Made by a program: the position numbers and the translations under genes. Shown here piece by piece: positions 31,296-41,855 of a stretch of DNA of 42,804 bases; position 1 is the stretch's first letter, and every line of letters begins with the position of its first letter. The notes below the pieces were generated by a model. It was given only the letters and a program-made list of their open reading frames with translations, was not told the origin of the DNA and searched no databases. This DNA comes from Mycolicibacterium chubuense. Lineage in GTDB: Bacteria; Actinomycetota; Actinomycetes; Mycobacteriales; Mycobacteriaceae. The stretch lies in NCBI RefSeq assembly GCF_001044255.1, contig NZ_JYNX01000091.1, positions 1 to 42,804 on the forward strand. The letters run 5' to 3'.

Positions 31296-32120
31296 TCAGC
31301 CCTTGGCGCTGCGCAGCTCGTGCGACAGTGCCTCGAGTTCGTCACCGCCGGCCATCTGCTGCGTCAGGTGCTCGAGCGTGATGTCGTCGTAGGCGCAGTC
31401 CAGCTTCTGCCTGCCACGGTTGAGCAGGACGAAATGGTCGCCGACGAGGTGCGCGTGGTGCGGGTTGTGGGTGATGAACACCACGCCGAAACCGGCTTCC
31501 TTGGCCGCGGTGATGTATTTGAGCACCACGCCCGATTGCTTGACGCCCAGCGCGGCGGTGGGCTCGTCGAGGATCAGGACGCGCGCCCCGAAGAACACCG
31601 CCCGCGCGATGGCCACACACTGGCGCTGGCCGCCCGACAGCGAGCCGATCGGCGCGTCGACGTCGGGCAGTTCGATGCCCATCTTCGACAGCTCCGTCAG
31701 AGTGGTGGCCCGCATGGCGTTGGCGTCCAGCGAGAACGGGAACGACTTCTTGCGCAGCTCCTGGCCGAGGAAGAAGTTGCGCCACACCGGCATCAGCGGC
31801 ACCACGGCCAGGTTCTGGTACACCGTGGCGATGCCTTTGGCCAGTGCGTCGGCGGGCGAACCGAACCTCATCGGCTCACCGTCGACGAGCAGCTCCCCCT
31901 CCGTCTGCTGATGCAGCCCGGAGATGATCTTGATCAGCGTGGACTTCCCGGCACCGTTGTCGCCGAGGATGCCGGTCACCTCACCGGCGTGCACCCGCAG
32001 GCAGATGCCCTTGAGCGCGGTGATGTTGCCGTAGGACTTGCCGACATCCTTGAGCTCGACCAGCGGAACCTTGCCGCCGGACGGTGCGTCGCTGCTGGGC
32101 TTTTCCATGGAGATGGTCAT
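31296..32120 (-). CDS. Sugar ABC transporter ATP-binding protein (single-domain, FrcA type)
   Basis: Cytoplasmic ATPase of a carbohydrate importer. The 274 residues have one ABC domain: Walker A GDNGAGKST (near 54-62), Q-loop VYQNLAVVP, signature LSGGQRQCVAIARA (near 160), Walker B VLILDEPTAAL and the switch His in FITHNPHH. It has one ABC unit, unlike the double-domain RbsA/XylG proteins, which is the FrcA-like form. It is last in the operon binding protein-permease-ATPase and starts four bases after the permease stop. Its promoter is the shared-operator promoter upstream of the binding-protein gene. Confidence 0.95.
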   Translation of the reverse strand: MTISMEKPSSDAPSGGKVPLVELKDVGKSYGNITALKGICLRVHAGEVTGILGDNGAGKSTLIKIISGLHQQTEGELLVDGEPMRFGSPADALAKGIATVYQNLAVVPLMPVWRNFFLGQELRKKSFPFSLDANAMRATTLTELSKMGIELPDVDAPIGSLSGGQRQCVAIARAVFFGARVLILDEPTAALGVKQSGVVLKYITAAKEAGFGVVFITHNPHHAHLVGDHFVLLNRGRQKLDCAYDDITLEHLTQQMAGGDELEALSHELRSAKG

Positions 32121-32124
32121 CAGA

Positions 32125-33183
32125 TCACTTCTTTGCGGCGTAGTTGCGGAAGGCGTTGTTGGCGATCACCGCGAACAGCAGCATCGCGCCGAGGAAGAAC
32201 TTGAACCAGTCGGGATCCCAGCCGGCGTAGACGATGCCCTGATTGGTCATGCCGAAGATGAACGCACCGATGGCGGCCCCGATCGCGGTGCCGTAACCAC
32301 CGGTCAACAGGCATCCACCGATGACGGCGGCGATGATGTAGAAGAACTCGTTGCCGATGCCCTGCCCGGACTGCACGGTGTTGAACGCGAACAGCAGGTG
32401 CATGCCGACGAACCAGGCGCAGAACCCGACGAACATGAACAGCCCGATCTTGACCTTGGTGACCGGAACACCCACGGCGCGTGCGCTGTCGGCGTCACCG
32501 CCGACGGCGAAGATCCAGTTTCCGATCCTGGTCTTGAACAGCACCCACGTGGCGATCGCGGTGAACACCAGCCACCACACCACCGTGATGCGGATGCTGA
32601 CGCCGAACAGGGTGAACGACGACGCGAACACCTTCTGCGCGGAATCCCAGCCCTGCATGTCGCTGACGCTCTGAGTGGCGACCTGGCCCGAAACCAGTTT
32701 GGTGACAGCGAGATTGATGCCGGCGAGCATGAAGAACGTGCTCAGCGTGATCAGGAAGCTGGGAATCTTCGTCCTCATCACCAGGAAACCGTTGAAGAAG
32801 CCGACCGCCAACGCCAGGATCAACGCCAGGAGCGCGCCCACCCACAGGTTGAGATGCAGGTTGTAGGCCAGCATCGACGCCGCCAGCGAGCTGAACGTCA
32901 CCGCCACACCGGCAGACAGGTCGAACTCGCCGCCGATCATCAGCACGGCCACACCGCACGCCATGATGCCGATGGTCGAGCTGGCGTAGAGCACCGTGGC
33001 CAGCGACCCTGCCTCACGGAACGGGGCCGCCACGACCAGGAAGAAGACAAAGATCCCGATCGCACCGATCGCTGCACCCATCTCCGGCCGGATCAGCAGC
33101 CGCTGCAGTCGATTCCGTTCCTTCACCCGCTCGTCGCGCACCACCTTGTGCTCAGCGACGTCGAGGTCTGCCTGTGTTGTCAT
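32125..33183 (-). CDS. Sugar ABC transporter permease (RbsC/FrcC family)
   Basis: Integral membrane channel of the importer, 352 residues from the ATG at 33181-33183; the open frame continues upstream into the previous gene and that part is not protein-like. It has about nine hydrophobic segments, and the BPD_transp_2 family hallmarks MIGGEFDLSAGVAVTFSSL, KIPSFLITLSTFFML and AVGGDADSARAVGV are clear. The last is the permease loop that contacts the ATPase. It lies 17 bases after the binding-protein gene and 4 bases before the ATPase gene, forming one operon. Confidence 0.94.
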   Translation of the reverse strand: MTTQADLDVAEHKVVRDERVKERNRLQRLLIRPEMGAAIGAIGIFVFFLVVAAPFREAGSLATVLYASSTIGIMACGVAVLMIGGEFDLSAGVAVTFSSLAASMLAYNLHLNLWVGALLALILALAVGFFNGFLVMRTKIPSFLITLSTFFMLAGINLAVTKLVSGQVATQSVSDMQGWDSAQKVFASSFTLFGVSIRITVVWWLVFTAIATWVLFKTRIGNWIFAVGGDADSARAVGVPVTKVKIGLFMFVGFCAWFVGMHLLFAFNTVQSGQGIGNEFFYIIAAVIGGCLLTGGYGTAIGAAIGAFIFGMTNQGIVYAGWDPDWFKFFLGAMLLFAVIANNAFRNYAAKK

Positions 33184-33200
33184 GTCAGTCTCCCCCAGTG

Positions 33201-34193
33201 CTATCGGGTGCCGCCCTTGGCCAGTTCGGCCACGGCGTCGATGTTGGACTTGTCGATGAACGACGGTCCGGTCAGCGTGGCCTGGCCTCCGCCGATCAGG
33301 TTCTTGTTGTTCAGGTACAGCCACAGCGCGTCGACGGCGAGATAGCCCTGCAGGTAGGGCTGCTGGTCGACGGCCCACTGGACGTCACCGCCCTTGATGG
33401 CGTCGACGAGTGCGGCGTTGGTGTCGAAGGTGACGATATTGGCGTTGCTGCCCGCGTTCTTCTTCGACTGGACCGCGGTCAGGGCGATCGGCGCGCCGAG
33501 CGCGACGATCGTGTCGACCGACGGATCCTGCTGCAGCTTGGCGGTGATCGTCGATTCGACCGACGGCATGTCCTTGCTGTTGACGTTCAGCAGTTCGGTC
33601 TGGCCCTTGAAGCCCTGCGTCACGCCGGCGCACCGGGACTCGAGCGCGACCTGGCCCTGCTCCTGGATGACGCAGACGACCTTCTTGGCGCCGTCGGCGT
33701 TGAGCTTCTCCCCCGCCGAGACACCGGCCAGCTTCTCGTCCTGGCCGAAGTACTCCTGCACGCCCATCGACTTCCAGTTGTCGAACCCGGAGTTGAAGGC
33801 GACCACCGGAATGCCCTTGTCGGTCGCAGCTTTCACCGCGGGTGCCATCGCGTCGGGCTTGGCCAGCGTGAGCGCGATGCCGTCGACGCCGCTGTCGAGC
33901 GCGCTCTGCACCAGGTTGGCCTGGTTGGGCGCCTCGGGGTCGTTGGAGTAGCGGAGTTCGATGTTGTCCTTCTTGGCCGCCGTCTCGGCGCCCTTGCGGA
34001 TCAGGTCCCAGAACGAGTCACCCGGCACCTCATGGGTGATCATCGCGATCGTCATCCGCGGCGTGTCGACGGTGCCACCGCCACCGCCGCCGTCACCCGA
34101 GCCCGCGGGCTTGCCGCCGGTCGACGAGCACGACACGATCCCCACCGCCAGAACGCCCGCCCCGGCGAGTGCCGCAAGCCGCTTGAACGTCAT
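33201..34193 (-). CDS. Sugar-binding lipoprotein of ABC transporter
   Basis: Extracytoplasmic binding protein of 330 residues, the first gene of the importer operon. Starting at ATG 34191-34193 (AAGGAG five bases before), it has a lipoprotein signal MTFKRLAALAGAGVLAVGIVSC, with lipobox IVSC, then a Gly-rich linker and the Peripla_BP_4 domain (AMITHEVPGDSFWDLIRKGA, GVDGIALTLAKPDAM, VVAFNSGFDNW, IVALGAPIALTAV). The fold is that of ribose/inositol/rhizopine-type binding proteins. The shared operator with the iol operon makes inositol or a related cyclitol the likely cargo, by inference. Confidence 0.93.
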   Translation of the reverse strand: MTFKRLAALAGAGVLAVGIVSCSSTGGKPAGSGDGGGGGGTVDTPRMTIAMITHEVPGDSFWDLIRKGAETAAKKDNIELRYSNDPEAPNQANLVQSALDSGVDGIALTLAKPDAMAPAVKAATDKGIPVVAFNSGFDNWKSMGVQEYFGQDEKLAGVSAGEKLNADGAKKVVCVIQEQGQVALESRCAGVTQGFKGQTELLNVNSKDMPSVESTITAKLQQDPSVDTIVALGAPIALTAVQSKKNAGSNANIVTFDTNAALVDAIKGGDVQWAVDQQPYLQGYLAVDALWLYLNNKNLIGGGQATLTGPSFIDKSNIDAVAELAKGGTR

Positions 34194-34273: not shown

Positions 34274-34319
34274 ATGTAATACGGCTCACAACGGAAAGTC
34301 AAGACTTTGTCCTGACATT
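34274..34319 (-). promoter_or_regulatory. Importer promoter with candidate IolR operator
   Basis: Read on the minus strand: operator core TGTCAGGACA (34308-34317), then a -35 TTGACT (34297-34302) five bases further, then a -10 region TATTAC/TTACAT (34274-34281) with spacing of 15 to 17. The 22-base block 34298-34319 is repeated at 36040-36061 with a single difference. The core, in the other strand, TGTCCTGACA, fits the KGWCHTRACA consensus I recall for the GntR-type IolR of Corynebacterium glutamicum. Confidence 0.65.
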
Positions 34320-34414
34320 AGGACTGCAAGTCATATCCCGTTACGATCACCGCAGATCACGCGAGTGCGCCTCATCGCGTCGACGATCCGCTTCTCTCTG
34401 GATGGGGAACTGAC

Positions 34415-35197
34415 ATGAGCTTTCAGCTGGCCGTGTGCTCGGAGATGGTGTTCCGCGACCTGCCGATCGTCGACCGCGTGAGGCGGATCCACGACCTCGG
34501 ATTCGCGGCCGAGATCTGGAGCTGGCACGACAAAGACCTCGACGCGCTGGCGGCGACGGGCGCGGTGTTCACATCGATGACCGGATATCTGCACGGCGAT
34601 CTCATCGACCCGGACAGCTGCGACGAAGTGGTCCGCACCGCGGAACTCAGCATCAAAGCCGCTGCGACACTCGGTGTTTCACGCCTCAATGTGCATACCT
34701 CCGAACTGGTGGACGGGCAGGCGGCCAGGCCGCGACAGCGGCCGACCGGTCAGATGTGGCTGACGGCCGCCCGCACGCTCGAGCGCCTCGGCGAGCTGGG
34801 CGCCGCGGCCGGCGTGACGTTCGTCGTGGAGAATCTCAACACGATCGTCGACCACCCGGGCGTCCCGCTGGCGCGCGCCAAGGACACGCTCGCACTCGTC
34901 GAAGGCGTCGGGCACCCCAACGTGAGGATGATGCTGGACCTCTACCACGCGCAGATCGGCGAAGGGAACCTCATCGAGTTGCTGCGCCGCTGCGGGCCCT
35001 CGATCGGCGAGATCCAGGTGGCCGATGTGCCGGGCCGGCAGGAGCCGGGCACGGGCGAGATCAACTATCCCGTTATTGCTGACGCGCTGCGCGACATGGG
35101 CTACACCGGGACGATCGGCATGGAGGCCTGGGCGGCCGTCGCAGGCACCGCGGGCAGCGAGGCCGCGCTGAAGGCCTTTCGCGCCGCGTTCTCCTGA
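34415..35197 (+). CDS. Hydroxypyruvate isomerase-like TIM-barrel sugar isomerase/epimerase
   Basis: A 260-residue xylose-isomerase-like barrel. Residues expected for the Hyi/OtnI group are visible: VVENLN (Glu, near 140), MMLDLYHAQ (Asp and His, near 173), EIQVADVPGRQEPGTGEIN (near 199) and GMEAW (Glu, near 237). The ...VADVPGR.EPGTGEINY block is characteristic of hydroxypyruvate isomerases and related keto-acid sugar isomerases. It is transcribed alone on the plus strand, divergent from the importer operon across the operator at 34298-34319 and convergent with the gntR gene, with a gap of 40 bases. It could be an IolH/IolI-type accessory of inositol catabolism, but the substrate is unproven. 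Confidence 0.85.
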   Translation: MSFQLAVCSEMVFRDLPIVDRVRRIHDLGFAAEIWSWHDKDLDALAATGAVFTSMTGYLHGDLIDPDSCDEVVRTAELSIKAAATLGVSRLNVHTSELVDGQAARPRQRPTGQMWLTAARTLERLGELGAAAGVTFVVENLNTIVDHPGVPLARAKDTLALVEGVGHPNVRMMLDLYHAQIGEGNLIELLRRCGPSIGEIQVADVPGRQEPGTGEINYPVIADALRDMGYTGTIGMEAWAAVAGTAGSEAALKAFRAAFS

Positions 35198-35237
35198 CGC
35201 CCGCACCCGCCGAAATTGCATTCCGGCAGAGGGGACC

Positions 35238-35969
35238 TCAGCGGTCGACGAGCGTGGTGTCGAAGTAGTACCGCGACGCGCGATAGCAATGGTTGCCGAA
35301 TTCGACCGCTGCACCGGAGTCGTCGAACGCGGTGCGCGCCATCGTGAGCAACGGTGCGTTCGGCTTCTCGTCGAGCAACTGCGCCTCCGCCCGCGTGGCG
35401 CCGCGAGCGCCGATGCGCTGGCGCGCCAACCGGATGTGCACTCCCCGCGCGCGCAACGACTGATAGAGCCCGCTGCTCTCGAGTTCCTCGGCGCCGGGGG
35501 CGATCTCGACGGGCAGGTAGTTCGTCATCACCGCGAGCGGTTCGCCGTTGGCGCACCGCAATCGGCGAATCGACACCACCTCGCGATCCAGCGCCAGATT
35601 GAGCTCGCGTGCGACCTCTTCCTCGGGCGGGCCGACCTGGTAGTCGAGCAGCGCGGTGGTCGGTTCCTGCCCCGCGCGGGCGAGGTCGTCGAACAGGCTG
35701 GTCAGTTCGACGCGGCGATGCACCGGGTTCTGCACCACCTGCGTGCCGACGCCGCGTTTGCGCACCAGCAGACCCTTGTCGACGAGTTCCTGGATGGCGC
35801 GCCGGGTGGTCGGCCGCGACAGCGAGAGTCGTTTGGCCAGCGCCAGTTCGTTTTCGAAGCGGTCACCCGGGGCGAGCTCACCGTCCCTGATGGCGGCCTC
35901 GATGGCCTGCGCGAGCTGATAGTAGAGGGGGACAGGACTGGACCTGTCGAGCTCCACGGTCAGAGGCAC
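35238..35969 (-). CDS. GntR-family (HutC-type) transcriptional regulator, probable IolR
   Basis: Winged-helix regulator of 243 residues. The GTG at 35967-35969 is taken as start because GGAG lies five bases before it and the protein then has the usual length; the open frame extends 45 codons upstream into the operator region and has no such site. N-terminal domain: PVPLYYQLAQAIEAAIRDGEL, FENELALAKRLSLSRPTTRRA (recognition helix) and GLLVRKRGVGTQVV. The C-terminal UTRA effector domain (about 95-240) follows. It is divergent from iolC across the operator at 36040-36061. The same operator precedes the importer operon, so it likely controls both. No effector was identified; family members bind sugar or polyol phosphates. 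Confidence 0.9.
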   Translation of the reverse strand: MPLTVELDRSSPVPLYYQLAQAIEAAIRDGELAPGDRFENELALAKRLSLSRPTTRRAIQELVDKGLLVRKRGVGTQVVQNPVHRRVELTSLFDDLARAGQEPTTALLDYQVGPPEEEVARELNLALDREVVSIRRLRCANGEPLAVMTNYLPVEIAPGAEELESSGLYQSLRARGVHIRLARQRIGARGATRAEAQLLDEKPNAPLLTMARTAFDDSGAAVEFGNHCYRASRYYFDTTLVDR

Positions 35970-36039
35970 GGCGGCTCCGATCTCGAGTTTGCCCTGGGCT
36001 TGCCAGAGGAAGCGTAGCACCCGATTGACAACAAGATAG

Positions 36040-36062
36040 AATGTCAGGACAAAGTATTGACA
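36040..36062 (+). promoter_or_regulatory. iolC promoter with candidate IolR operator
   Basis: On the plus strand TGTCAGGACA (36042-36051) is followed five bases later by a perfect consensus -35, TTGACA (36057-36062). The same order and spacing occur upstream of the importer operon. A -10 box is less certain; CACAGT at 36081-36086 (18-base spacing) and CATAAC at 36087-36092 are candidates. Operator placement just upstream of, and touching, the -35 fits repression or activation. Confidence 0.65.
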
Positions 36063-36126
36063 TGATGGTGTGGCGGGAGGCACAGTCATAACAGCCACCC
36101 ACACCTATCCGTCGGAGTGACTTGTG

Positions 36127-37095
36127 ATGACCAATCAGCCATATGACGTGCTCGCCATCGGGCGCAGCGGCGTCGACGTGTATCCGCTCCAGGTCGGCGT
36201 GGGCCTCGAAGACGTCGAATCCTTCGGCAAGTTTCTCGGGGGCAGCGCCGCCAACGTCGCCGTCGCCGCGGCCCGGCTGGGCAACCGCACGGCCCTGATC
36301 TCGGGAGCCGGCGACGACCCGTTCGGCCGGTTCGTCCGCAACGAACTCGCCCGCCTGGGGGTGGACAACCGGTTCGTCTCCACCCACGGTGAGTTCCCGA
36401 CGCCCGTGACGTTCTGCGAAATCTTCCCCCCTGACGACTTTCCGCTGTACTTCTACCGCAAGCCCAGCGCACCTGACCTGCAGATCCGCCCCGACGAGAT
36501 CGACGCCGACGAGGTGCGCTCGTCGCGCCTGTTCTGGGCCACGGTCACCGGATTGTCCGAAGAGCCAAGCCGCAGTGCACATTTCGCGGCCTGGGAAGCA
36601 CGCGAACGTCGACCCCTCACCGTGCTGGATCTCGACTACCGGCCGATGTTCTGGGACTCCCCCGCCGCCGCCACCGAACAGGTGCGCAAGGCGCTGGCCC
36701 ACGTCACCGTCGCCGTCGGCAACCGGGAGGAGTGCGAGATCGCCGTCGGCGAGTCGAACCCGCACAAGGCAGCAGACGCGCTGCTCGACCTCGGCGTCGA
36801 ACTGGCCATCGTCAAGCAGGGTCCGCGGGGCGTACTCGGGAAGAGCCGCCGGTCGTCGGTGACCGTCGCACCCAACGAGGTCGACGTCGTCAACGGCCTC
36901 GGCGCCGGCGATGCGTTCGGCGGCAGCCTGTGCCACGGACTGCTCCACGGCTGGTCGCTCGAGAAGACCCTGCGCTACGCCAACGCCGCGGGCGCCATCG
37001 TCGCCGGGCGGCTGGAATGCTCGACCGCCATGCCGACGGCCACCGAGGTCGCCGAACTGGCCGAACAAACCGCAGAGGAAGCCGTCAATGTCTGA
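36127..37095 (+). CDS. iolC: 5-dehydro-2-deoxygluconokinase IolC
   Basis: PfkB-family kinase that phosphorylates 5-dehydro-2-deoxy-D-gluconate at C6 in inositol catabolism. The 322-residue protein carries LGGSAANVAVAAARLG (about 38-53), a central lid, and VNGLGAGDAFGGSLC (near 255-270) with the catalytic Asp. The DVYPLQVG and GKFLGGSAANVA segments are those of IolC, not ribokinase. A GTG at 36124 directly precedes the ATG at 36127; GGAG (36114-36117) serves either, so the start is uncertain by one codon. It is the first gene of the iol operon, with the last eight bases overlapping the aldolase-like gene. Unlike proteobacterial IolC it has no fused DUF2090 aldolase domain; a separate gene supplies that step here. 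Confidence 0.93.
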   Translation: MTNQPYDVLAIGRSGVDVYPLQVGVGLEDVESFGKFLGGSAANVAVAAARLGNRTALISGAGDDPFGRFVRNELARLGVDNRFVSTHGEFPTPVTFCEIFPPDDFPLYFYRKPSAPDLQIRPDEIDADEVRSSRLFWATVTGLSEEPSRSAHFAAWEARERRPLTVLDLDYRPMFWDSPAAATEQVRKALAHVTVAVGNREECEIAVGESNPHKAADALLDLGVELAIVKQGPRGVLGKSRRSSVTVAPNEVDVVNGLGAGDAFGGSLCHGLLHGWSLEKTLRYANAAGAIVAGRLECSTAMPTATEVAELAEQTAEEAVNV

Positions 37096-37972
37096 AACTG
37101 CCCTCTGCCAGGACTATTCGGCCATCACCGATCTGCGGGCCACCGATCCCGGCGCCGTCGCCCGGGCGTGGCAGAGCCGTACCCCCCGGCCGACGACGCG
37201 CGGCAACGGCCGTCTGATGATCGTCGCCGCCGACCATCCCGCGCGCGGCGCACTGGCCGTCGGCTCGCGTCCGACCGCGATGAACAGCCGCACCGATCTG
37301 CTCGACCGGCTGCGCGCAGCGCTGGCCGATCCGGGGGTGGACGGGGTGCTGGCCACCGCCGACATCCTCGATGACCTGGTGCTGCTCGGCGCGCTCGAGG
37401 ACAAGGTCGTGTTCAGCTCGTTCAACCGCGGCGGTCTGGCGGGCTCGTCGTTCGAGCTCGACGACCGGATGACCGGTGCCACGGCCGCGTCCACCGCGGC
37501 GGCCAACATGAACGGCGGAAAGATGCTGTGCCGCATCGATCTCGACGACCCGGGTACTGTCGCCACGCTGGCATCGTGCGCCCAGGCCGTCGACGAGCTC
37601 GCCGCGCACGGGCTGATCGCCATGCTGGAGCCGTTCATGTCGTCGCGGGTCAACGGCAAGGTCCGCAACGACCTGTCGCCGGATGCGGTGATCAAGTCGG
37701 TGCACATCGGTCAGGGCCTGGGCTCCACGTCGGCCTACACGTGGATGAAGCTGCCGGTGGTCGACGAGATGGACCGGGTGATGGACTCCACCACCATGCC
37801 CACCCTCCTGCTGGGGGGCGACCCGACCGACCCCGACGAGGCGTTCGCGAGCTGGGAGAAGGCGCTCGCCCTGCCGTCGGTGCGCGGGCTGATCGTCGGC
37901 CGCACCCTGCTATACCCGCCCGACGACGACGTCAGCTCGGCCGTCGCGACCGCGGTGGCGATGGTCCGATGA
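37088..37972 (+). CDS. Class I aldolase-like TIM-barrel protein (Cgl0158 family)
   Basis: A 294-residue (beta/alpha)8 barrel of the family annotated as Cgl0158-like (DeoC/LacD-type aldolase group). Start at ATG 37088 overlaps iolC by eight bases; the frame is open further upstream but not protein-like. MIVAADHPARG (near 44) and GKMLCRIDLDDPG (near 142) are typical, and a Lys in TWMKLPVV (near 220) is a plausible Schiff-base residue. It sits exactly where an aldolase is needed to split 2-deoxy-5-keto-D-gluconate 6-phosphate into dihydroxyacetone phosphate and malonate semialdehyde, a role filled by class II IolJ in Bacillus. The role is inferred from position. The stop overlaps the iolB start by four bases. 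Confidence 0.85.
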   Translation: MSETALCQDYSAITDLRATDPGAVARAWQSRTPRPTTRGNGRLMIVAADHPARGALAVGSRPTAMNSRTDLLDRLRAALADPGVDGVLATADILDDLVLLGALEDKVVFSSFNRGGLAGSSFELDDRMTGATAASTAAANMNGGKMLCRIDLDDPGTVATLASCAQAVDELAAHGLIAMLEPFMSSRVNGKVRNDLSPDAVIKSVHIGQGLGSTSAYTWMKLPVVDEMDRVMDSTTMPTLLLGGDPTDPDEAFASWEKALALPSVRGLIVGRTLLYPPDDDVSSAVATAVAMVR

Positions 37973-38871
37973 ACTCGAAGCTCTACATCCCCGCCAACAG
38001 CGCCGCCCCGCCGTTCACGGTCGCGATCACCCCCGAAGACGCGGGCTGGGCCGAATCCTCCCTGCACGTGCTCGATCTCGGTGACGGCAGAGAGGTGTCG
38101 CTGGCCACCGAGGGCACCGAGGTGATGATCCTGCCACTCGCGGGTGCCGCGACCGTCGAGTGCGCCGGTGAGACGTTCGCACTGTCGCCGCGGGTCTCGG
38201 TGTTCGACGGACCCGCCGACATGGTCTACCTCGGCATCGGTCAGGAGTACACGCTCTCGGGCCGCGGCCGGATCGCGATCTGCGGCGCCCGGGCATCGGC
38301 GTCGTTCCCGAACCGGCGGGTGGCCGCGGCCGACGTGCCGGTCGAGCTGCGCGGCGCCGGCAACTGCAGCCGCGAGGTGCACAACTTCGGCACCGCGACG
38401 ACGTTCGAGGCGGATTCGCTGATCGCGTGCGAGGTGCTCACCCCCGGCGGCAACTGGTCGAGCTATCCCGCCCACAAGCACGACGAGAACACCGACGTGG
38501 AGACCCAGCTCGAAGAGATCTACTACTTCGAGATCGACGACAGCCCCGCCGGCACACCGGGATTCGGTTATCACCGGGTCTACGGAACACCCGAGCGCCC
38601 CATCGAGGTGCTCGAGGAGGTGCGAACCGGCGACGTCGTGCTGGTGCCGCACGGCTATCACGGCCCGTCCATCGCCGCGCCGGGGCACCACATGTACTAC
38701 CTCAACGTGATGGCCGGCTCGGGACCCACCCGCGCCTGGATGATCTGTGACGACCCCGCCCACACCTGGCTGCGCGGCAGCTGGGAGCACCAGCAGATCG
38801 ACCCGCGCCTTCCCTTCACCCCGTCCTCGCCGTCAACCACAACTCGAACGCCGGCTTCGCCGGCTGGATAG
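37969..38871 (+). CDS. iolB: 5-deoxy-glucuronate isomerase IolB
   Basis: Isomerises 5-deoxy-D-glucuronate to 5-dehydro-2-deoxy-D-gluconate, the substrate of IolC. The 300-residue bicupin has metal-binding motifs in the C-terminal cupin: HKHDENTDVE (near 168), a Glu in LEEIYYFEID (near 181), and VPHGYHGPS (near 228). Start ATG 37969 overlaps the preceding stop (ATGA). The last 20 residues (Ser/Thr/Pro-rich) look like a tail without family conservation; the DNA there contains a GC-rich hairpin. Apart from this tail the length and motifs are typical. Confidence 0.93.
   Translation: MNSKLYIPANSAAPPFTVAITPEDAGWAESSLHVLDLGDGREVSLATEGTEVMILPLAGAATVECAGETFALSPRVSVFDGPADMVYLGIGQEYTLSGRGRIAICGARASASFPNRRVAAADVPVELRGAGNCSREVHNFGTATTFEADSLIACEVLTPGGNWSSYPAHKHDENTDVETQLEEIYYFEIDDSPAGTPGFGYHRVYGTPERPIEVLEEVRTGDVVLVPHGYHGPSIAAPGHHMYYLNVMAGSGPTRAWMICDDPAHTWLRGSWEHQQIDPRLPFTPSSPSTTTRTPASPAG
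38850..38864 (+). repeat. GCCGGC-TTC-GCCGGC hairpin at the iolB/iolD boundary
   Basis: A perfect 6-bp stem with a TTC loop lies over the last codons of iolB, six bases before the GGAG ribosome site of iolD (38871-38874). GC-rich hairpins of this sequence type are common in mycobacterial genomes. It could act as a mild translational or RNA-processing element, or it may be only a repeat. Confidence 0.5.
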
Positions 38872-38883
38872 GAGACTGACACA

Positions 38884-40830
38884 GTGGTTTCCACCGCGCC
38901 GAAGTCGACCGAGAAGCTCGCCGACACCGAACCGACGGTGCGCCTCACCGTCGCCCAGGCGACCGTCCGCTTCCTGGCCAACCAGTACGTCGAGCGGGAC
39001 GGGCGGCGGCATAAGTTCTTCGCCGGGTGCCTGGGCATCTTCGGGCACGGCAACGTGGCCGGCGTCGGCCAGGCCCTGCTGCAGGATGAGGTCGAAGCTC
39101 ACGAGGCCGGCGTGGAGCCGGGGCTCAAGTACGTGCTCGGCCGCAACGAGCAGGCGATGGTGCACACGGCGGTGGCCTACGCCCGCCAGCAGGACCGGCT
39201 GCAGGCCTGGGCGGTGACCGCCAGCATCGGTCCCGGCTCGTCCAACATGCTCACCGGCGCGGCCCTGGCCACGATCAACCGGCTACCGGTGCTGCTGCTG
39301 CCGTCCGACACGTTCGCGACCCGGGTGAGTTCGCCGGTGCTGCAGGAACTGGAGTTGCCCTCGAGCGGCGACGTGACGGTCAACGACGCGTTCAAGCCGC
39401 TGTCCCGGTATTTCGACAGGGTGTGGCGTCCCGAGCAGCTGCCCGCCGCGCTGCTGGGTGCGATGCGTGTGCTGACCGACCCCGCCGAGACGGGCGCGGC
39501 GACGGTGTCGCTGCCGCAGGATGTCCAGGCGCAGGCCCACGACTGGCCGGAATCGCTGTTCGCCGAACGCACCTGGCACGTCGCCCGGCCGCCGGCCGAG
39601 CGGTCGGTGATCGCTCGTGCCGCCGAGGTGGTGCGCTCGGCGCGCAAGCCGCTGATCGTGGCCGGCGGCGGCGTGATCTACTCCGGCGCCGACGACGCGC
39701 TGGCGCGATTCGCGGTGCAGACCGGAATCCCGGTGTGCGAGAGCCAGGCCGGCAAGGGGTCGCTCCTGCACGAGCATCCGCAGTCGGTCGGTGCGGTCGG
39801 ATCCACCGGCACGACGGCCGCCAACGCGCTGGCCGGCGAGGCCGACGTGATCATCGGCATCGGCACCCGCTACAGCGACTTCACGTCGGCATCGCGGACC
39901 GCCTTCAACAACCCGGACGTGCGGTTCGTCAACATCAACGTCACGTCGCTGGACGCGGTCAAGCAGGGCGGCATCAGCGTCGTCGCCGACGCCCGCGAAG
40001 CCCTCGAGGCGCTCGCCGCGGCGGTCGGCGACTACACGGTCAGCGACGAATACCGCTCCCGCACAGCCGAACTGATGGCCGAGTGGAACGACACGGTCTC
40101 AGAGGTGTACCGCACCGACGACGGCGCCGCACTGAACCAGAATCAGGTGATCGGCCTGGTGAACACCCTGTCCGACCCGCGAGACGTGGTGGTGTGCGCG
40201 GCCGGATCGATGCCCGGGGATCTGCACAAGCTGTGGCGGATGCGTGACCGCAAGGGCTATCACGTCGAGTACGGCTACTCCTGCATGGGCTACGAGATCG
40301 CCGGCGGTATCGGGGTGCGGATGGCTGCGCCGGACCGCGACGTGTTCGTCATGGTCGGCGACGGCTCCTATCTGATGATGGCCACGGAGATCGTGACCGC
40401 CGTGCAGGAGGGCGTCAAGATCATTCCGGTGCTGGTGCAGAACCACGGGTTCGCCTCGATCGGCGGGCTGTCGGAGTCGTTGGGCTCTCAGCGATTCGGC
40501 ACCGCCTACCGCTATCGCAGCGAGGACGGCCGGCTCGACGGCGACACCTTGCCGGTCGACCTGGCTGCCAATGCGGCGAGCCTGGGCGCCGAGGTCATCA
40601 AAGTGACGACGGCCGCCGAGTTCGCCGATGCGGTCAAGGTCGCCAAGGCCGCCGACCGCATCACGGTGATCTACGTCGAGACCGATCCGCTGATCTACGC
40701 CCCCGACAGCCACTCCTGGTGGGACGTCCCGGTCAGCGAGGTGTCCTCGCTGGAATCGACGCAGCAGGCCTACCAGCGGTACGCGGACTGGAAGAAGGTC
40801 CAGCGCCCGTTGATCAGGCCGTCGGAGTGA
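38884..40830 (+). CDS. iolD: 3D-(3,5/4)-trihydroxycyclohexane-1,2-dione acylhydrolase IolD
   Basis: Thiamine-diphosphate enzyme that opens the cyclohexane-dione ring to 5-deoxy-D-glucuronate. The 648 residues show the catalytic Glu in VLGRNEQAMVHTAVAYARQ (near 88), a central domain (about 210-360), and the ThDP/Mg motif VGDGSYLMMATE...VQNHGFASIGG (about 490-525). Start GTG 38884 has GGAG nine bases before it, 12 bases after the iolB stop. Five bases separate its stop from iolG. Length and motif order fit IolD closely. In this protein 15 of 16 Lys codons are AAG, a useful baseline for the mmsA gene that follows. Confidence 0.95.
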   Translation: MVSTAPKSTEKLADTEPTVRLTVAQATVRFLANQYVERDGRRHKFFAGCLGIFGHGNVAGVGQALLQDEVEAHEAGVEPGLKYVLGRNEQAMVHTAVAYARQQDRLQAWAVTASIGPGSSNMLTGAALATINRLPVLLLPSDTFATRVSSPVLQELELPSSGDVTVNDAFKPLSRYFDRVWRPEQLPAALLGAMRVLTDPAETGAATVSLPQDVQAQAHDWPESLFAERTWHVARPPAERSVIARAAEVVRSARKPLIVAGGGVIYSGADDALARFAVQTGIPVCESQAGKGSLLHEHPQSVGAVGSTGTTAANALAGEADVIIGIGTRYSDFTSASRTAFNNPDVRFVNINVTSLDAVKQGGISVVADAREALEALAAAVGDYTVSDEYRSRTAELMAEWNDTVSEVYRTDDGAALNQNQVIGLVNTLSDPRDVVVCAAGSMPGDLHKLWRMRDRKGYHVEYGYSCMGYEIAGGIGVRMAAPDRDVFVMVGDGSYLMMATEIVTAVQEGVKIIPVLVQNHGFASIGGLSESLGSQRFGTAYRYRSEDGRLDGDTLPVDLAANAASLGAEVIKVTTAAEFADAVKVAKAADRITVIYVETDPLIYAPDSHSWWDVPVSEVSSLESTQQAYQRYADWKKVQRPLIRPSE

Positions 40831-40835
40831 CGGGC

Positions 40836-41855
40836 ATGTCCGACCTCAGAGTCGCCGTGCTCGGTGTCGGAGTGATGGGTGCCGACCACGTCGCCCGCAT
40901 CACGTCCCGGATCTCCGGGGCGCGGGTGACGGTCGTCAACGACTTCGTCGCGGAGAAGGCCGAGCAGATCGCGTCCGAGATCGACGGCTGCCGTGCGGTG
41001 TCCGACCCGTTGGACGCGATCGCCGACGCCGACGTGGATGCCGTGGTACTGGCCACCCCGGGCAGCACCCACGAGAAGCAGCTACTGGCCTGCCTGGAGC
41101 ACGGCAAGCCGGTGATGTGCGAAAAGCCCTTGACCACCGATGTCTTTACGTCGTTGGAGATCGTCAGGCGGGAGGCCGAGCTGCAGCGCCCGCTGATCCA
41201 GGTCGGTTTCATGCGGCGGTTCGACGAGGAGTACATCGCGCTCAAGGCGCTGCTCGACGGTGGCGAGCTGGGCACTCCGCTGGTGATGCACTGTGTGCAT
41301 CGCAACCCGAGCGTGCCCAGCTACTTCGACAGCTCGTTGATCGTCAAGGACTCGCTGGTGCACGAGGTCGATGTGACCCGGTTTCTGTTCGGCGAGGAGA
41401 TCGCCAGCGTGCAGATCGTCCGGCCGGCCTCGAATCCCGGTGCGCCCGAGGGTGTCATCGATCCTCAGATCGCAATCCTGAAGACGGTGAGCGGCCGGCA
41501 CGTCGACGTCGAGTTGTTCGTCACCACCGGCGTGGCCTACGAGGTGCGCACCGAGGTGGTCGGCGAACGCGGCAGCGCGATGATCGGTCTTGACGTCGGG
41601 CTGATCCGCAAGTCCGCGCCCGGAAAGTGGGGCGGCCGGATCACCCCCGGATTCCGTGAACGGTTCGGCCGCGCCTACGACACCGAGATCCAGCGGTGGG
41701 TCGACGCGGTGCAAAGCGGGCACACCACGGGGACATACATCGACGGCCCCACCGCCTGGGACGGCTACGCGGCGGCCGCGGTGTGCGCCGCGGGCGTCGA
41801 ATCCCTCGACACCGGTCTGCCCGTCGACGTGCAGCTCGCAGACCTCAAGCCCTGA
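40836..41855 (+). CDS. iolG: Inositol 2-dehydrogenase-like Gfo/Idh/MocA protein IolG
   Basis: NAD-dependent oxidation of myo-inositol to scyllo-inosose. The 339 residues from ATG 40836 have VLGVGVMGADHVARI at the nucleotide site, MCEKPLTTD with the catalytic Lys (near 98), and VKDSLVHEVDVTRFLFGEE (near 170-187) with the Asp and His equivalents of known IolG enzymes. The start follows the iolD stop by five bases; the open frame before it is iolD sequence in another frame. It belongs to the same branch as the dehydrogenase at 26183, so the locus has at least two IolG-like enzymes, perhaps for different inositol isomers. All ten Lys codons are AAG. Confidence 0.88.
   Translation: MSDLRVAVLGVGVMGADHVARITSRISGARVTVVNDFVAEKAEQIASEIDGCRAVSDPLDAIADADVDAVVLATPGSTHEKQLLACLEHGKPVMCEKPLTTDVFTSLEIVRREAELQRPLIQVGFMRRFDEEYIALKALLDGGELGTPLVMHCVHRNPSVPSYFDSSLIVKDSLVHEVDVTRFLFGEEIASVQIVRPASNPGAPEGVIDPQIAILKTVSGRHVDVELFVTTGVAYEVRTEVVGERGSAMIGLDVGLIRKSAPGKWGGRITPGFRERFGRAYDTEIQRWVDAVQSGHTTGTYIDGPTAWDGYAAAAVCAAGVESLDTGLPVDVQLADLKP

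Follow-up and report, generated by a model that had tools for sequence, protein, structure and literature searches.

We analysed a 42,804-nucleotide stretch of the Mycolicibacterium chubuense genome (contig NZ_JYNX01000091.1, positions 1 to 42,804; hereafter the window), in which two promoters, one in front of an ATP-binding cassette (ABC) importer and the other in front of the inositol-catabolic gene iolC, carry nearly identical copies of a 22-bp block. Both promoters are very probably governed by an IolR-type GntR operator switch, with repression lifted by an inositol-derived ligand. The original prediction, which held that the GntR protein encoded beside iolC binds both copies, is right in its facts and in its main inference, and the system is a well-supported IolR-type regulon of a known kind. 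In the mechanism that we propose, the GntR/HutC protein encoded at 35238-35957 would be the counterpart of actinobacterial IolR repressors and would bind TGTC-NN-RACA beside the -35 boxes of the importer and iolC promoters, both of which would stay repressed until the ligand occupies its UTRA domain. The core of the site lies one helical turn from the TTGAC box, and the bound protein would thus cover the -35 element and keep sigma factor off. Relief of this repression by an inositol signal is suggested by published relatives. Because site B, the copy near iolC, lies between the divergent gntR (minus strand) and iolC (plus strand), it probably also controls gntR (autoregulation). In addition, both promoters probably receive a second input, of the global CRP type, through a CRP-like palindrome that lies over their -10 regions.

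The duplicated block and the regulator beside it

The two copies, site A (34298-34319, minus strand) and site B (36040-36061, plus strand), lie 1.7 kb apart, match at 21 of 22 positions (AATGTCAGGACAAAGTCTTGAC and AATGTCAGGACAAAGTATTGAC, respectively) and share the form AATGTCAGGACAAAGT[C/A]TTGAC. The coordinates, opposite orientation and identity given by the original prediction were exact on recheck, as was its spacing of 5 bases between the end of the core and TTGAC at both copies. Its assignment of one copy to iolC and the other to the importer was confirmed in the window and in the genus contexts described below. With up to three mismatches allowed, the whole 22-mer was found in the 5.9-Mb genome only at sites A and B, leaving unrelated loci of this genome free of the full block, and the reversed pattern gave 0 matches. 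The 10-base core alone is unremarkable, with 2 matches in the window against 2.08 expected when one mismatch is allowed, and 4 occurrences genome-wide against 2 for the reversed pattern; the two further genomic copies, one of them intergenic (L001), the other at a coding junction (L002), both lack the remaining block. Looser patterns are noisy, yet sites A and B rank first in both: TGTCNGGACA-N5-TTGAC occurs at 30 places with up to two mismatches (17 reversed) and the 20-mer TGTCNNNACAAASTNTTGAC at 14 places with up to three (16 reversed), and with fewer than two and fewer than three mismatches, respectively, only sites A and B are found. A wider regulon in this genome was considered and rejected, as the other 12 matches of TGTCNNNACAAASTNTTGAC all carry three mismatches, the reversed pattern gives as many, and no convincing extra site was found.

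A chance repeat is ruled out by the rarity of the 22-mer in its own genome together with its retention in the gntR-bearing genomes of the genus. The proximity of the copies might suggest a recent local duplication without regulatory meaning, but this idea, which is hardly credible, is already contradicted: the flanks of sites A and B differ save at scattered conserved positions, and the genus retains both copies, with a distinct flanking consensus around each. With capitals marking bases conserved in at least 90%, the genus consensus reads GAATGTCaGgACAAA.T.TTGACA-N7-GtG.cg.gggGCACagTC for site B and CCTAATGTC.g.ACAAAGT.TTGACTTTC.g.TGTGAgccGTATTACATC for site A. In these contexts the conserved element reaches past the 22 bp on both sides.

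The gntR product combines an N-terminal GntR winged helix (PF00392, 51 bits, cut-off 27) with a C-terminal UTRA domain (PF07702, 121 bits, cut-off 23.8), which makes it a GntR/HutC protein by domain content. It scores under the curated NCBIfam equivalog cut-offs for PhnF (119.9 of 156.8) and HutC (117.6 of 220), and no IolR model is among the 22 NCBIfam families listed for it. Its closest solved chain is the putative regulator PDB 2ra5 (E 6e-77); YvoA (E 2e-35) and DasR (E ~5e-29), which act on amino-sugar genes, belong to the same GntR/HutC family by sequence but are far more distant. Operators of this family are short near-palindromes of the form GT-N-NN-N-AC. The TGTC-NN-RACA core, present as TGTCNNNACA in 92 of 106 distinct gntR upstream regions (from 116 loci), is best read as a predicted GntR/HutC operator of the IolR type. 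Among 104 regulator sequences below 70% identity, the DNA-binding domain shows a mean identity of 69% against 52% for the remainder, as expected if one operator is kept, and the winged helix is conserved across 184 regulator sequences (in both sets some entries are the same gene fetched twice).

According to the available passages of published reports, IolR of Corynebacterium glutamicum is a GntR-type repressor of inositol genes that is released by myo-inositol (PMC9603128, PMC8634428). SCO6974 of Streptomyces coelicolor is titled a GntR-type repressor of myo-inositol catabolism (PMC6608401, PMC6295645), and in the passages available SCO6974 and SCO6256 are GntR-type regulators named for the same pathway as the window regulator. 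The window gntR has the gene context of an IolR-type regulator, being divergent from iolC, and its product is 43% identical to PDB 2p19. A 3.2-Mb genome in our set (G640) encodes a regulator that adjoins iolC and is 93% identical to 2p19, which we take to be the C. glutamicum protein; G640 was accordingly taken as a near relative of C. glutamicum. Compared with the G640 regulator, that of the window is 51% identical overall, the winged helix being better conserved (68%) than the remainder (45%). As in the window, the G640 protein has GntR and UTRA domains and is encoded divergently from iolC, with the identical core TGTCAGGACA between the two genes; unlike the window, the intergenic region has a second box, TGTCATAACA, 19 bp on and no TTGAC 5 bp past the core. 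Taken together, the window gntR appears to be an ortholog of C. glutamicum IolR. The original prediction also fitted the core to KGWCHTRACA, reportedly the consensus of C. glutamicum IolR; the fit holds on the opposite strand (TGTCCTGACA) and fails for TGTCAGGACA as written. This consensus was found neither in the passages of open-licence literature searched nor in those available from PMC12298647.

Conservation of the block with gntR and inositol genes

Across 118 genomes of the genus, a gntR ortholog is present in 36 (74-100% identity; three also carry a paralog at 34-37%) and iolC in 37, namely the same 36 and, as a partial match, a genome that is 84% complete. The degenerate block TGTCNNNACAAASTNTTGAC was found in 38 genomes, comprising 36 of 36 with gntR and 2 of 82 without it, and the reversed pattern gave 0 in every genome. 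Among the 36 gntR-bearing genomes, 34 have two copies, one has three (G041) and one has a single copy (G093); at least two exact copies are present in 35. Among the loci examined, the 80 unique genus contexts read toward iolC (44), toward the importer (33) or elsewhere (3). The block is thus kept in every gntR-bearing relative within the genus, nearly always before inositol-type genes, in agreement with the regulon originally predicted. Iol clusters are reported in 28% of 395 Mycobacteriaceae species in the available passages of PMC9430895.

The three other genus contexts precede a sugar-porter MFS gene (G070), a TIM-barrel gene (G041) and nothing recognised (G026, where comparison with the window proteins recognised no inositol-type gene nearby). 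G070 is 73% complete and has no gntR match; its block (L312, G070:C524, position 429, plus strand) stands before the MFS gene, which is possibly an inositol transporter. The third G041 copy (L314, G041:C134, position 3591, minus strand) precedes an isomerase-like TIM-barrel gene that matches IolE weakly (41 bits, cut-off 290), and a gene that by eye looks like a LacI-type regulator lies near it. In Mycolicibacterium komossense (L288), three block copies occur in one locus (453, 1384 and 1641), the extra one 95 bp from gntR and 371 bp before a binding-protein match.

At the level of the order, the gntR ortholog occurs in 91 of 298 genomes that are at least 90% complete, and in 27 of 66 genera. 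An iolC match was found near gntR in 99 of 116 loci, a set that includes the genus and some genes fetched twice, with examined flanks of differing length (1.5 to 4 kb). Among the 92 upstream regions with the core, TTGAC lies exactly 5 bases past it in 79, and four other distances within 50 bases occur once each.

A scan of named genomes with ATGTCMKRACAAASTNTTGAC returned at least 117 stretches, and the matches listed include Mycobacterium, Rhodococcus, Gordonia, Streptomyces, Arthrobacter, Nonomuraea, Nocardioides, Janibacter, Micromonospora, Geodermatophilus and others. The counts for named genomes given here and below refer to the matches listed. In Streptomyces genomes other than S. coelicolor, the same block as in the window precedes iolC or the importer. 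Overall, for 117 of 130 sites the gene downstream within 1.5 kb is iolC (53), a permease gene (26), a binding-protein gene (23) or one of the Gfo/Idh type (15), the last with 28-33% identity and thus not proven inositol dehydrogenases. For the remaining 13, iolC lies further off in one (L237), and four stand near a gntR or Gfo/Idh gene, each close to the end of its stretch (L220, L227, L232, L238). Eight have no gene match: in four of them the stretch ends within 450 bases of the site (L181, L216, L257, L277), one (L193) precedes an IolE-like gene (141 bits, cut-off 290), and three (L235, L247, L276) lie in metagenome-assembled genomes titled as other phyla, where the block is taken as chance.

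These distributions bear on whether the block could simply represent a type of -35 promoter common to both operons, or be recognised by a regulator other than the GntR protein. TTGAC is a general -35 element, the binding of the block by the GntR protein is itself a prediction from sequence, and the block also precedes importer genes in named loci with no gntR in view. Nevertheless, the presence of the block follows that of gntR from one genome to the next within the genus, the conserved part starts 15 bases upstream of TTGAC, and the symmetry of TGTC-NN-RACA is like that of GntR/HutC sites. We therefore regard such an origin of the block as very improbable.

Promoter architecture and the CRP-like palindrome

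The original prediction described the block as a 22-bp unit of operator plus promoter. We speak of a promoter on account of the conserved TTGAC and of conserved bases 17-18 nt downstream of it. The conservation of TTGAC agrees with this description; the conserved element is, however, longer than 22 bp, ending about 25 nt after TTGAC, and a consensus scan returned no promoter with a TATAAT-like -10 at either site. Measured centre to centre, the core is 11 bp upstream of AGT[C/A]TTGAC[A/T], which is itself box-like (resembling GT[AC]TTGAC), and a second, weaker operator may coincide with the TTGAC -35 box. If the -35 is the second of two boxes facing the same side of the helix, the rigid spacing would need no activator to account for it. 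Reading the region as one long palindrome around the middle A comes to the same as the two boxes; this symmetry is clearest at site A (GTCAGGAC-AAA-GTCTTGAC) and only partly conserved. The scan listed the site A palindrome as terminator-like, which we take as a by-product of its symmetry. This promoter layout is not described in the passages of open-licence literature searched, which is no proof that it is unpublished.

Several observations weigh against an IolR-type repressor switch as drawn here. The genus sequences are related, and their counts are not independent. In the order-level set, 17 of 116 gntR loci lack an iolC match, 11 of which also lack iolB, iolD and the Cgl0159-like gene, so that the set may include regulators of other genes; the core is missing from 14 of 106 gntR upstream regions, and in 9 others it has no TTGAC within 50 bases. 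Four of five genomes examined in one genus of the same family (g4) have gntR without iolC alongside and TGTCATAACA without TTGAC at +5. The Corynebacterium-like relative G640 keeps the core without the TTGAC arrangement, and KGWCHTRACA is unenriched across its genome (62 against 80 reversed). Added to these are the missing TATAAT-like -10 and the partial retention of the left half of the second box: GTC occurs in 12 of 34 reduced order-level sites, where the middle T is kept in 30, and in 33 of 127 reduced contexts (TTGAC was required in choosing sites for these base frequencies). Finally, the core lies upstream of the -35, a position that activators use too.

In the four g4 loci (L119, L303, L306, L309), the gntR ortholog has ~68-70% identity, TGTCATAACA lies upstream and the stretch contains no iolC, while iolC is present in the fifth g4 genome (L118). 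In g4 the regulator may have become separated from its pathway, or it may act on a different one.

From a position just upstream of the -35, a bound GntR protein could touch sigma factor and act as an activator or in a dual manner. Both the rigidity of the 5-bp spacing, which is kept in 79 of 83 regions with TTGAC within 50 bases of the core, and the want of a good -10 would suit activation. But the characterised relatives are called repressors, a second box over the -35 at an 11-bp pitch accounts for the spacing equally well, and the Corynebacterium-like relative keeps the core without this spacing. Activation by the GntR protein is thus unlikely, and we retain repression through the IolR-type operator as the preferred reading.

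A palindrome related to TGTGA-N6-TCACA begins exactly 7 nt past TTGAC in both window promoters. At this offset, 47 of 127 reduced contexts reach 8/10, and no other offset between 0 and 19 gives more than 7 such contexts (the 127 derive from 233 contexts by reduction on flank identity; group counts use all 233). Mycobacterium has the palindrome at offset 7 in 58 of 73 unnamed and 25 of 32 named contexts, two sets that cover partly the same species. It is likewise found at this offset in Rhodococcus (15/15), Gordonia (3/4), Geodermatophilus (2/2) and Blastococcus (1/1), and in further groups labelled f14 (10/11) and f1 g3 (5/6), with 1/16 in others. Unlike in the window, it is absent at offset 7 from Streptomyces (0/20), as it is from the Arthrobacter group (0/22) and 24 further labels (0/31). 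In the Arthrobacter group, 21 of 22 contexts have a CRP-like match at other offsets, with examples inside the spacer, between the -35 and a separate ATGAT.

We hypothesise that a CRP-type global input acts at both promoters through this palindrome, whose overlap with the -10 would suit repression. The genome itself contains 8 matches over the cut-off to the Crp-type helix model PF13545. The M. tuberculosis CRP form GTGnnAnnnnnCACA, as given in the available passages of PMC4005916, is not matched by the window: both sites lack the inner A, and site A has TACA instead of CACA. Many CRP sites have been predicted in a Rhodococcus (PMC5327559), a report that leaves iol genes unmentioned in the passages available. 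CRP binding at an activating distance from a start further downstream is not favoured, since conservation ends ~25 nt past TTGAC and, by arithmetic, the site B start would hit the ribosome-binding site. Alternatively, TGTG-N8-YACA after TTGAC may be merely a conserved -10 region. Its right half overlaps the candidate -10 hexamer, and the Streptomyces contexts and those of the 24 other labels lack it at offset 7; against this, the left half is conserved too, though it lies in the spacer, and the Arthrobacter group has its CRP-like matches at another offset. We consider this alternative a serious possibility, though a rather doubtful one.

Surrounding genes and wider meaning

The features at and around the two sites are collected in Table 1. 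Downstream of iolC follow, in order, the Cgl0159-like gene, iolB, iolD and the inositol-dehydrogenase-like gene, and the isomerase-like gene is divergent from the importer across site A. This divergent gene, the taxonomic reach of the block and the second palindrome over the -10 region were not part of the original prediction. Upstream of site A, the window has strongly conserved bases at 34320-34340 (TGAC-N-TGCAGTCCT before AATGTC in the genus consensus), which could be part of the promoter that drives the divergent isomerase-like gene. A stretch of Mycolicibacterium chlorophenolicum DSM 43826 (L286, 1-3600) is very similar to the window (permease 99%, ATPase 100% and isomerase-like protein 98% identical), indicating a species very close to the window organism. 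In L002 (G000:C34, ~2440-2990), three near-identical copies, by eye 5S rRNA-like and with N between them, suggest assembly collapse.

Table 1. Coordinates of the operator sites, candidate promoter elements and neighbouring genes in the window.
Feature	Position	Strand	Details
Site A block AATGTCAGGACAAAGTCTTGAC	34298..34319	-	Toward ABC importer; core operator box TGTCAGGACA (predicted) at 34308-34317
Site B block AATGTCAGGACAAAGTATTGAC	36040..36061	+	gntR-iolC intergenic region, toward iolC; core box 36042-36051
Possible second operator box AGTCTTGACT	34297..34306	-	Putative; includes -35 TTGACT (34297-34302); 11 bp centre-to-centre from core
Possible second operator box AGTATTGACA	36053..36062	+	Putative; includes -35 TTGACA (36057-36062)
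CRP-like palindrome TGTGAGCCGTATTACA	34275..34290	-	9/10 to TGTGA-N6-TCACA; overlaps candidate -10 TTACAT; putative CRP-type binding protein
CRP-like palindrome TGTGGCGGGAGGCACA	36069..36084	+	8/10 to TGTGA-N6-TCACA; overlaps candidate -10 CACAGT (36081-36086); putative CRP-type binding protein
gntR, GntR/HutC-type regulator with UTRA ligand domain	35238..35957	-	~239 aa; PF00392, PF07702; start codon picked by homology
iolC, 5-dehydro-2-deoxygluconokinase	36124..37095	+	First gene of catabolic unit; TIGR04382, 393 bits, cut-off 300
Cgl0159-like protein	37091..37972	+	PF22649; approximate start
iolB, 5-deoxy-glucuronate isomerase	37948..38871	+	TIGR04378, 276 bits, cut-off 205; approximate start
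iolD, trihydroxycyclohexane-dione acylhydrolase	38884..40830	+	TIGR04377, 908 bits, cut-off 715
Inositol-dehydrogenase-like, Gfo/Idh/MocA type	40833..41855	+	Best NCBIfam InsChiInosDhIolG, 279 bits, under cut-off 540; approximate start
Sugar/inositol-type binding protein	33201..34193	-	First importer gene; PF13407; best NCBIfam rhizopine SBP, 188 bits, under cut-off 420
ABC permease	32125..33378	-	PF02653; open frame, true start probably inside
ABC ATP-binding protein	31296..32120	-	PF00005
Hydroxypyruvate-isomerase-like TIM-barrel gene	34415..35197	+	PF01261; best NCBIfam TIGR03234, 128.6 bits, under cut-off 353

More broadly, the inositol promoters of a large part of the Actinomycetota could represent one ancient composite of ~45-60 bp, in which two repressor boxes are set one helical turn apart, the -35 doubling as the second, and in some lineages are followed by a CRP-type site. 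In mycobacteria, rhodococci, Gordonia and Geodermatophilus relatives this site would overlie the -10 at a constant offset of 7 nt; in the Arthrobacter group it would have been placed independently inside the spacer. We advance this composite tentatively, with slightly more doubt than belief; if it is true, the core promoter by itself would integrate specific and global carbon signals.

To the known regulon type, the analysis adds how deeply it is conserved, its fixed composite layout and a possible CRP-type site. Very distant Actinomycetota retain the predicted operator, the -35 box and the distance between them along with the pathway, and for environmental mycobacteria there is now a precise operator candidate for inositol use. 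The block can serve as a search tag for inositol genes, and in relatives it also flags MFS transporter and isomerase-like genes; another possible use is in building inositol-inducible promoters for GC-rich hosts. Should the CRP-like element prove real, inositol use would be linked to global carbon control in these bacteria.

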